The translations under genes and the position numbers were made by a program. The notes beneath the pieces were generated by a model. That model ran no database searches. It was given only the letters and a program-made list of their open reading frames with translations, and was not told the DNA's origin. 64,000 nt of DNA from Cystobacter ferrugineus (GTDB lineage: Bacteria > Myxococcota > Myxococcia > Myxococcales > Myxococcaceae). The stretch spans positions 887,956 to 951,955 of the forward strand of contig NZ_MPIN01000003.1 of NCBI RefSeq assembly GCF_001887355.1. Direction: 5' to 3'. Positions 11,740-49,916 of the stretch are shown one piece after another (position 1 is the stretch's first letter; each line of letters begins with the position of its first letter).

Positions 11740-12846
11740 ATGGACCGCATCCTCGTAGTGGATGACGATCCGCTCATTCTGGCCGCGCTGTCGCGGATCC
11801 TCCAGTCGGAGGGCTACGAGGTCGTCACCCACACGGATCCCGCCCAGGCCGCCAAGGAGCAGGGATTCCAGGTGGTGCTGACGGACTTCATGATGCCGCT
11901 GCTCAACGGCGTGGAGCTCTTGCGCACGCTGCGTGAGAAGAACCCGCGCGCGGTGCGCCTGATGCTCACGGCGGCGGCGGACTTCCGCACCGCCTCCGAG
12001 GCCGTCAACCGGGGCGAGGTGTTCCGCCTGCTCGGCAAGCCGTGGTCACTCAGCGAGCTGACCAGCGCGGTGCGCCAGGCCATCGAGCACTACCGGCTGG
12101 TGGAGTCCAACGAGCGGCTCACGCGCGAGGTGGCGGAGAAGAACGCGGAACTGACGGCCATCAACCGCGACCTGGAGCGCATGGTGGTCGAGCGCACCAA
12201 CGGCCTGCTCGATGGCCTCATCAGCGCGCTCGACTACCGCGATACCGAGACCCAGTGGCACTCACGCCGCGTGTCGCTCTACTCGCGCCGCATCGGCGAG
12301 GAGATCGGTCTGACGCCCACCCAGCTCGAGGTGGTGGAGCAGGGCGCGCTCCTGCACGACATCGGGAAGATCGGCGTGAGCGACACCATCCTGCTCAAGC
12401 CCGGCCCGCTCTCGCCCGAGGAGTGGGTGGAGATGCGCAAGCACCCCGAGTACGGCTACAAGATCCTCGCGAAGATGCCCTACCTGCACGACGCCTCGCT
12501 CATCGTGCTGCACCACCAGGAGCGCTGGGACGGCAAGGGCTACCCCCAGGGGCTCAAGGCCCGGGACATCGTCATCGGGGCGCGCATCTTCGCCATCGCC
12601 GACACCGTGGACGCCATCACCTCGGATCGTCCCTACCGCAAGGGCCGGCCGCTGTCCGTGGCGCGCGATGAGATCCGGCGCTGCTCGGGCACGCAGTTCG
12701 ATCCCGAGGTGGCCGAGGCCTTCCTGCGCATCCAGGACGCCGAGTGGCAGCGCATCCGCAAGAAGGTCGAGGACATGGAGAACGCGGAGAACGCGCTCTG
12801 GGCCGGCTTCACGCCGGGCAAGGTCCCCAACCGCGTGGCGAGCTGA
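11740..12846 (+). CDS. Response regulator with HD-GYP phosphodiesterase domain
   Basis: 368 aa. Receiver domain at residues 1-120 (VDDDPLILAALSRIL; TDFMMPLLNGVELL with the phospho-acceptor Asp; LLGKPW). A coiled linker (about 125-155) leads to an HD-GYP domain (about 160-340) with LLHDIGKIGVSD, HHQERWDGKGYP and DTVDAITSDRPYRKG. It likely hydrolyses cyclic di-GMP under control of an unlinked sensor kinase. The last about 25 residues are extra. Monocistronic, ending in a hairpin shared with the convergent gene. Confidence 0.95.
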   Translation: MDRILVVDDDPLILAALSRILQSEGYEVVTHTDPAQAAKEQGFQVVLTDFMMPLLNGVELLRTLREKNPRAVRLMLTAAADFRTASEAVNRGEVFRLLGKPWSLSELTSAVRQAIEHYRLVESNERLTREVAEKNAELTAINRDLERMVVERTNGLLDGLISALDYRDTETQWHSRRVSLYSRRIGEEIGLTPTQLEVVEQGALLHDIGKIGVSDTILLKPGPLSPEEWVEMRKHPEYGYKILAKMPYLHDASLIVLHHQERWDGKGYPQGLKARDIVIGARIFAIADTVDAITSDRPYRKGRPLSVARDEIRRCSGTQFDPEVAEAFLRIQDAEWQRIRKKVEDMENAENALWAGFTPGKVPNRVAS

Positions 12847-48582: not shown

Positions 48583-48637
48583 GCGCACAGCGCTACAGCA
48601 GACCCTCGCTGTCCGAGCGGGTGTCCCCCGAGCGCAG

Positions 48638-48718
48638 CCGAGCGGGTGTCAAAGAACTTGAGCCCCGAGCGGGTGTCAAAGAACTTGAGCGCCGAGCGGG
48701 TGTCAAAGAACTTGAGCA
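48638..48718 (+). repeat. Three 27-bp direct repeats at the 3' end of the RAYT gene
   Basis: Units at 48638, 48665 and 48692 with core CCGAGCGGGTGTCAAAGAAC; a partial fourth lies at 48613. The last unit enters the 3' end of the transposase gene. In reverse orientation the unit reads TTCTTTGACACCCGCTCGG. Confidence 0.9.
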
Positions 48719-49623
48719 GGCGCGACACGCGGCGGGAAGGCGAAGGGAGGAAAGCAGGCCAGGAAATCCCCCCGACGCCACCGCGCCGCCGCCTCTCGAA
48801 ATGCCGCGACGAAGGCCCGATATTGCTCGCGTAGCTCCTTCAATGCCTGCCGCGTGGAGGCATGGCCCAACGGCCTCGGGCTCCTCTTGAGGTGCTCGGG
48901 CCGGGTATGCGGGTGCTGCGCCTTCACGGCTCGTGCCCCCAGCACAGGCGTGCCCCGGGTTCGAGCCTTGGCTTCCACTTGCTCCACCATCCCCCGTACC
49001 GCACGCTGCCTCTGCTCCTCCTTCAGTCTTTCCCAGCACGGCAGTCGCGCGAGCTCCAGTTCCACCGGCTCGGCCCATTCCTGTGCGAAGCGCCCCTCAT
49101 CCGCCATGTCCTCGCTTCCCCGTTTGCTCCAGCGCTTCGTCCAGTTGAACCACTGGAACACTCTCCGCGCCGGCCCCAGCAATTGCGGCAGGCACGTGAG
49201 ACCCGGCCACTCAGCACTCCTCTGCACCAGTCCCTCCTTCACCCCATGGGCCAGCACGTAGCGCAGCCGGCCCACCAGTGCTGTGTCATCCAGCACCGGT
49301 TCCGCTGAGTAGCGCCGCTCCCAGAAACCTCCACTCCAGTCCACCAGTTTGCCCACCTTCTTGGACAGGTTGGTGCGCAAATACTGCATGAAGCCGGCAA
49401 GCGCGGCACCCCGTGCCCACACCAGTAAGTGGAAGTGATTGGAGGCGAAGGTAAAGGCGTACAGCCGGATGGTGCCCGCGCTCTGCTGGACGGCTCGTGC
49501 CAACACCCCTCCTACCACCTCGTTCACCTCCGCGCTGGGGCGCAACAGGAGTCGCCCCTGGAAGCACCTGGACGTGACGAAGTAGTAGCCCTCCTCCTGG
49601 AACATCCTCAGCGGCCAACCCAT
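48703..49623 (-). CDS. REP-associated tyrosine transposase (RAYT, Y1/IS200-like)
   Basis: 306 aa. The HUH nuclease motif is in FTFASNHFHLLVWARG; other family stretches are EGYYFVTSRCFQGRLLLRP, YLRTNLSKKVGKLVDWSGGF and VGRLRYVLAHGVKEGLV. RAYTs are domesticated single-strand transposases that cut REP palindromes. Start at ATG 49623 (MGWPLRMFQEEG) after a purine-rich run. Both flanks carry repeats sharing the core TTTGACACC in opposite orientations. The C-terminal about 130 residues are Arg-rich and variable. Confidence 0.85.
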   Translation of the reverse strand: MGWPLRMFQEEGYYFVTSRCFQGRLLLRPSAEVNEVVGGVLARAVQQSAGTIRLYAFTFASNHFHLLVWARGAALAGFMQYLRTNLSKKVGKLVDWSGGFWERRYSAEPVLDDTALVGRLRYVLAHGVKEGLVQRSAEWPGLTCLPQLLGPARRVFQWFNWTKRWSKRGSEDMADEGRFAQEWAEPVELELARLPCWERLKEEQRQRAVRGMVEQVEAKARTRGTPVLGARAVKAQHPHTRPEHLKRSPRPLGHASTRQALKELREQYRAFVAAFREAAARWRRGDFLACFPPFAFPPRVAPAQVL

Positions 49624-49707
49624 CCCCTTCCCCCCCTCGTGAGCACGTCGAGGCCGGATGCACCGCGCGCGCCAACTCGCAAGTCCGCGGAAGCATTTGA
49701 AGAGGGT

Positions 49708-49874
49708 GGGTTCCACCGTCCACGCCCCGTCTCGTTCTGGCCTGGGTCCCGCGTTTCGAGTCCTTTGACACCATCCCGGGACACCATCCCGGGTGTCGCC
49801 CGGGTTCCACCGTCCACGCCCCGTCTCGTTTTGGCCTGGGTCCCGCGTTTCGAGTCCTTTGACACCATCCCGGG
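49708..49874 (+). repeat. Two 73-bp direct repeats upstream of the RAYT gene
   Basis: Units 49708-49780 and 49802-49874 (offset 94 bp) are identical except for about one base. Both end TCCTTTGACACCATCCCGGG. Between them GACACC-ATCCCG-GGTGTC forms a REP-like hairpin. The shared TTTGACACC core runs opposite to that in the 27-bp repeats on the other side of the gene. Confidence 0.9.
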
Positions 49875-49916
49875 GGGCCCTCGGGCAAGTCCTGCGGCAC
49901 GACGCGTTTCCCGGTC

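Follow-up and report, generated by a model that had tools for sequence, protein, structure and literature searches.

A gene resembling those of REP-associated tyrosine transposases (RAYTs) lies between two sets of tandem repeats in the 64,000-nucleotide stretch of DNA analyzed here (the window), which is G000:C3:887956-951955 of a 12.05-Mb genome of 42 contigs. The locus raises the question of how these repeats arose and whether they mark the places at which the transposase cuts. The RAYT identity of the gene, assigned in the original prediction, was borne out, as the gene encodes a Y1 HUH protein with PDB 4er8 (a RAYT) as its nearest solved structure. A profile of 20 homologues of the window protein found 4er8 at E 1.6e-7, and 4er8 was also the top Foldseek match of the predicted structure, a low-confidence model (pLDDT 48.6) of which the core alone is usable. 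The residues N93 H94 x H96 and the catalytic Tyr153 were invariant in 20/20 homologues, all of which were matched by NCBIfam REP_Tyr_transpos at E <= 0.01 (best, 1.5e-25). The window protein itself scored 48.9 bits (E 5.9e-13) against this family, short of the curated cut-off of 80, and narrowly missed the cut-off of 23 for Pfam Y1_Tnp with 20.6 bits. Its Y motif reads YVLAHGVKEGL and lacks the class 2 motif, given as Y---NP in the available text of PMC6006769; the 16 nearer homologues have Y---H or Y---Q, and Y---NP was found only in three remote outgroups (L106-L108). Since the conserved part starts at MGWPLRMF, the downstream ATG is the likelier start (Table 1). We conclude that the encoded protein is closest to RAYTs and plausibly works like one, and that the system departs from known RAYTs and REPtrons; we call it a variant because it misses three marks, namely the score cut-off, Y---NP and the REP feet.

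As predicted, the gene is bordered by related repeats in opposite orientation, with two pairs of inverted arms of 81 and 80% identity. The predicted 27-bp units on the 3′ side (three, 96–100% identical, with a fourth, 13-bp core copy) and 73-bp units on the 5′ side (two, 99% identical) are both present; they are not two distinct types, however, but one repeat type with short or long tips, the 73-bp repeat arising from the long tip of the outermost unit of the 5′-side array. Their shared core is real and longer than the 10 bp first noted (GAGAR-GGTGTC-AAAGRACTYGA). The sequence described as a REP-like hairpin between the 73-bp units also exists, but we reject its reading as a REP hairpin: it is a by-product of the array, and it was absent at the four other RAYT loci whose borders were written out. 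The two gene ends folded no better than shuffles (z +0.85 and +0.06), and on reading the end consensus we saw no GTAG/GTGG (GT[AG]G) foot. Shortly before the 3′-side array ends an ORF of 725 aa that by eye looks lipoprotein- and Kelch-like; its repeats are of two kinds, tandem ones of 267 bp (94% identical) and six looser ones of 86 bp (63–71% to one copy).

Table 1. Positions, in window coordinates, of the transposase gene, its repeats and the neighboring ORF.
Feature	Position	Strand	Remark
ORF of 725 aa	46405-48582	+	
13-bp core copy	48613-48625		3′ side of gene
3′-side array	48614-48704	+	four units CGAGCG-GGTGTC + tip; cores 48620, 48645, 48672, 48699; C at 48613
Three 27-bp units	48637-48717		3′ side of gene
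RAYT-like Y1 HUH transposase ORF	48703-49716	-	337 aa from GTG at 49716
Likelier start of this ORF	49623	-	ATG; 306 aa
Inner 73-bp copy	49708-49780	+	element tip + unit
5′-side array	49767-49872	-	three units CGGGAT-GGTGTC (GACACC-ATCCCG on +); cores 49767, 49780, 49861
Palindrome GACACC-ATCCCG-GGTGTC	49780-49797		array unit meeting end of outer unit's tip
Outer 73-bp copy	49802-49874	+	duplicated element tip + unit
Inverted arms, first pair	48663-48688 and 49850-49875		
Inverted arms, second pair	48664-48688 and 49756-49780		

The original prediction had further suggested that the repeats define a mobile unit or a REP family. The genome-wide search proposed with it found that they recur elsewhere: CTTTGACACC occurs in 87 exact copies in the 12.05-Mb genome, against 1 for the reversed pattern, and the stricter end GGTGTCARASRAYTYG in 88 copies, against 0. 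The window RAYT protein had 27 matches in the genome, four of them close to full length, one of which has a stop codon; a fifth covers about two thirds of the protein, and the others are fragments. The longer copies were 77–88% identical to that in the window. A non-autonomous palindrome with the same end is usually 52 bp long, and lengths of 39, 51, 53 and 64–69 bp occur among the 16 elements listed (24 rows, as 8 elements were read from both strands). Its inner motif GAATCGTCTGACACC had 68 copies with <=2 mismatches, a count that includes some other ends of the RAYT family, against 0 in the control. Eleven copies, aligned with L075 in the opposite orientation and L061 off by one base, had one common 16-pair stem; none of the 16 pairs was changed on both sides, so the pairing rests on conservation. 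The dispersal supports the view that autonomous and non-autonomous elements form one family, defined by its inverted ends, and the dispersed copies and fragments suggest that this family has moved. The mobile half of the suggestion is thus supported, and the REP half is not, as the two ends tested form no REP hairpin and a GTAG-type foot is lacking.

Several features of the palindromes and their surroundings were seen in passing. Their lengths cluster at 39, 52 and 65 bp, in 13-bp steps near the array unit length, with exceptions at 51, 53, 64 and 69 bp. By eye, a 52-bp-type palindrome at about 485-545 of L242 (G000:C4:198900-199900) continues in frame into the end of a gene-like sequence, whose stop codon it appears to provide. 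In the 5′ flank of the RAYT at L038, at about 12300-12500, a second palindromic repeat (CGAGTCCTTTGACTCGACTTTCGCCATTTTT ... AAATGGCGAAAGTCGAGTCAGACGACTCGTAG) adjoins the RAYT array, and pieces resembling it also lie in L236 and L065.

The ends were found together with the gene across genomes. When the strict end was counted in 96 genomes of the family, 819 copies fell in the ten genomes whose RAYT matches reach at least about 70% identity: 88 in G000 (this genome), 171 in G032, 160 in G033, 64 in G002, 165 in G003 (Archangium lansinium, one of the relatives carrying the RAYT gene), 16 in G004, 7 in G005 (fragments only), 45 in G006, 58 in G007 and 45 in G080. The other 86 genomes together had 11, spread over nine genomes, and the reversed control had 1 in all 96. 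No strict end was found in G034, despite one short RAYT fragment of the 70% class, or in four genomes with more distant RAYTs (G046, G081, G082 and G088).

The structure of the repeats was read from the five RAYT loci whose matches were longest. Units there consist of six bases fixed per border, GGTGTC and 0 to about 70 bases of element tip, and the last unit enters the element. The ends are inverted at four of the five loci written out, the fifth (L038) having no 3′ end, and the six bases differ between the sides at all four loci that keep both. In general terms, the tandem unit is C|N-GAGAR-GGTGTC followed by element tip of variable length. Defining an array as a cluster of GGTGTC preceded by the same six bases, with one mismatch allowed, we counted 33 arrays (102 units) among 52 loci of this genome, which span 410 kb, and 56 arrays (187 units) among 46 loci of relatives, which span 264 kb; these counts split a few long arrays into pieces, and one or two clusters look accidental (L182). 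Since the loci were picked for carrying an end or the gene, permuted cores in the same DNA are the fair control, and the 59 other letter orders gave means of 0.53 and 0.92 arrays (maxima, 3 and 7) in this genome and the relatives, respectively. Random local repeats are excluded by this comparison and by the reversed-pattern control.

We then asked where a unit begins, numbering bases backwards from GGTGTC. In 84 arrays, defined here by the five bases before the core only, base -6 agreed with that of the first unit in 163/188 cases, -7 in 160/188 and -8 in 77/188, and agreement beyond was about 0.25–0.37. A C stood at -7 in 83% of the 99 single ends and in 80% of the 130 inner array ends. When 192 ends from different loci were compared in pairs, which are not independent of each other, the similarity of -5..-1 rose from about 0.3–0.6 to 0.71–0.84 where the tips were alike; that of -6 stayed near 0.3 whatever the tips (0.38 in the 103 closest pairs). 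As only -5..-1 track tip similarity, they behave as part of the element, or as chosen by it, and -6 and -7 behave as host bases. The array unit nevertheless includes -6, and one base of each unit therefore seems to come from the host site.

Among 192 junctions in 86 arrays, 93 were clean, that is, an exact element prefix joined to a flank suffix. They break mostly right after GGTGTC, the element part being exactly GGTGTC in 68/93, and near the C seven bases outside. The two sides share a single C in 46/93 and nothing in 24/93. Both cuts can be placed after a C in 63/93, compared with 0.246 for random cuts, or in 63/69 of those with an overlap, compared with 0.516; the other 30/93 violate this rule. 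The remaining 99/192 junctions have extra or unmatched bases, often C runs, or mixed units, and the two-part model fails there. At L056 and L092, a single array has many tip ends on one fixed outer border.

The arrays were also compared with those of relatives. At L055, three species of the genus (G000, G032 and G033) share a palindrome at the same position, with one, two and four units on the left, respectively, two, three and two on the right, and different tips. At L238, the left side carries two degenerate units in G000, one unit in G032 and three in G033, and the right side one, two and one, respectively. Because unit number and tips differ among the three species at two orthologous loci, the arrays appear to grow in place. 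At L042 and L249 a relative has the element with its array unchanged, and at L246 a relative differs by 8 nt only, at the border. The comparison of insertion sites suggested earlier thus revealed varying arrays but no clean empty site when joined flanks of 13 loci were compared with 8 relatives and those of 16 loci with 7 relatives; homology to the element-free relative generally ended at one side, and the flanks were never both contiguous. Relatives without the element were compared at 25 borders, and homology entered at most three of the six bases before GGTGTC. Homology with the nearest relative ended <=3 nt from the C-N border at 17/25 of them, although L046 left and L248 right lie in repeated DNA and at several of the 17 other relatives stop further out; at the other 8/25 (L046 right, L054, L056, L076, L081, L238, L249 and L250) it ended 6–36 nt short.

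The layout is not confined to one family. At RAYT loci of 40–54% identity, at least two units were seen by eye in 6/10 (L175, L176, L177, L179, L180 and L181), some of which use the core GGTGC; L174 and L126 had no units, and L178 and L182 were ambiguous. When 37 loci from other families in the phylum were scanned for hexamers containing three or more different letters, GGTGCC was the top array core, with 15 clusters, compared with 5 for the next same-letter permutation (mean, 1.0). Fourteen of these clusters come from genomes G098-G103, whose RAYTs have about 35–45% identity, and in 14 loci of this group the shared flank starts with C in 25/32 repeats. The layout, with core GGTGC, is found with RAYTs of another Myxococcota family as well. 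Many of the 37 loci had no long repeat on one or both sides. RAYT-like genes at L324, L342, L344 and L321 (G129, G131 and G148) have some flanks with an unrelated core (CCGACCGAGAG-like). At L308, CCATAAAAAG units form a 5′ array ahead of GTCTCACCCAAATTTC, and one end on the 3′ side carries GTCTCACCCAAATTTC, a similar layout with another core. At L177, L179 and L180, in the more distant group, the bases before the core can pair inside the element into a REP-like hairpin, for example ACGAGGTGT-CAA-ACACCTCGT in L179.

On these grounds we lean slightly towards a model in which a Y1 HUH family with ends 5′-GAGAR-GGTGTC-AAAG builds the locus-specific arrays by cutting and rejoining. The element end, 5′-GAGAR-GGTGTC-AAAG..., would adjoin a host C-N dinucleotide, and the window RAYT, or a relative in the same cell, would cut single-stranded DNA after C (C^N-GAGAR-GGTGTC^AAAG), that is, on both sides of a 12-nt terminal segment. 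The free 3′-OH end (...GGTGTC, or a C deeper in the tip) would then be joined to a 5′ end whose first base is the host N; single strands at the replication fork may be where this happens. Each join would add one copy of the terminal segment, so that locus-specific arrays would grow in place, alike at autonomous copies, fragments and the 52-bp non-autonomous palindromes. We read the arrays as a record of such events because two after-C cuts 12 bases apart, joined head-to-tail, give the minimal unit. The available text of PMC8266576 reports that RAYTs of E. coli, Stenotrophomonas and Marinomonas cut single-stranded repeats at C|T, one of them also at C|A, and perform strand transfer; in one of the RAYTs studied in vitro, the foot tetranucleotide acts as a guide. 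The original prediction that the repeats may be cleavage sites is in keeping with the array junctions, which suggest cut sites at the repeats. The reciprocal product, host C joined to AAAG, was not seen among 38 RAYT-type tips, 37 of which keep the core or a one-mismatch version of it (the exception follows A), in a set biased to loci picked for the core or the gene; its absence would favor a one-way, copying version of the reaction.

The main rival to this cut-and-join model is replication slippage, or unequal exchange, beside terminal inverted repeats, such that the arrays are passive minisatellites for which the RAYT only placed the ends. We consider it less likely, even though the C common to both sides of half the clean junctions, the slipped appearance of C runs at some junctions (L076) and the palindromic nature of the small elements (z -2.8 for one tested for folding) would suit it. 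Slippage copies existing units, yet the arrays at L056 and L092 mix many tip ends on a fixed outer border; it also has to contend with the exact element-side break after GGTGTC, with the clean junctions that share no base and with the few arrays that permuted GGTGTC gives in the same DNA. Other single-strand enzymes, or slippage, could still contribute to the arrays. That each unit is instead the remnant of a separate element, inserted at the same preferred site and deprived of its body, is very improbable: tips of very different length between units and the abundance of element fragments would be in line with it, but independent insertions would give a common -6 in only about 0.30 of units, far from the agreement found.

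A further question is whether the 5–6 nt before GGTGTC belong to the element at all. They might be a target chosen through a guide and lying outside the element, in which case the array would duplicate target plus foot, a reading we find doubtful. These bases do vary between loci in the G098-G103 family and differ between the two ends of L311, L313, L331 and L332, IS200/IS605 elements select targets through guides (PMC8266576, in the part available), and the rise of -5..-1 similarity with tip similarity is also expected if each end type picks its own target. On the other hand, L329 of the G098-G103 family has the same six bases at both ends. The points at which homology ends at the 25 borders speak against the six bases being old host sequence, although they are not decisive since the other side is non-homologous. 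The simpler notion that the six nucleotides are plain flank is weakened by the tip-similarity and border comparisons, and we retain it as a rival in view of the variation of these bases in the G098-G103 family.

Set beside known systems, the elements resemble the 'REPtrons' of RAYT/TnpA-REP (PMC2817692, PMC3116915 and PMC8266576, each in the part available to us), with which they share a Y1 HUH protein near 4er8, a gene between inverted copies of a dispersed repeat, dispersal linked to gene presence and, judging from PMC8266576, the cutting after C on either side of the repeat that is proposed here. They differ in having no GT[AG]G foot in the end consensus and no REP hairpin at the two ends tested, in YVLAHGVKEGL instead of Y---NP and in locus-specific border arrays. 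The TIRYT/TIRtron, as far as described in the accessible text of PMC3733652, likewise has a RAYT-like gene between terminal inverted repeats rather than REPs, and small dispersed repeat families; its repeats are single, dimeric or grouped, whereas the units here are site-specific. The TIRYT motif GGGGWSAS given there contains GGGGACAC, whose complement, GTGTCCCC, is formed at some of the array junctions described above. GGGGWSAS occurs, on either strand, in 5/192 ends, once in the window 3′ array and not in its 5′ array. At window 48620-48628, GTGTCCCC forms where GGTGTC meets C runs, and some TIRYT repeats might share the core. IS200/IS605 elements differ in having Y---Q, where Y---H is found here, in a short single-domain protein rather than one of 306–337 aa, and in near-identical copies rather than the 77–88% seen among the longer copies.

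The delta-proteobacteria formerly included the myxobacteria. TnpA-Y1 subclass 2.1 was placed partly in delta-proteobacteria, and subclasses 2.3/2.1 share with the window protein its length (median of 325 aa in 2.3), a long C-terminal tail and a WE motif, according to what is available of PMC6006769; the window protein differs in NHFH versus NHYH (2.3) and YVLAHG versus YVDLNP. The same portion reports these subclasses without REP-like flanks, whereas the window gene has repeat borders. Neither PMC6006769 nor PMC3733652 mentions Myxococc-, Anaeromyxobacter or Stigmatella in its main text. Tandem REPIN clusters of Pseudomonas fluorescens SBW25 are also amplified together with flanking sequence, but there, in the available part of PMC3116915, whole REPINs or REPs spaced 72–112 bp are repeated, which is larger than the arrays here, where the unit is usually a 12–15-nt terminus with one host-like base and variable tips. 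Among the literature matches listed, which covered few subscription papers, there was no description of border arrays like these or of RAYTs of myxobacteria.

The way in which RAYTs spread their repeats has yet to be explained, the mechanisms of REP dissemination being described as poorly understood in the accessible text of PMC8266576. The arrays resemble a record, left in nature, of numerous cut-and-join events; they predict two cut sites to the base and suggest where a little-studied enzyme cuts. Because the predicted cut sites are defined at base level, the core is changed in another family and arrays vary between species, the reaction can be tested with short oligonucleotides or by resequencing. 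More tentatively, we propose a Myxococcota-wide RAYT lineage with additive DNA writing, in which a short terminus plus one host base would be appended in place, without reciprocal loss, generating site-specific minisatellites and copies recoded by their location. If the cut-and-join reading is confirmed, very large bacterial genomes would have in such arrays a source of minisatellites that change and are marked by locus.
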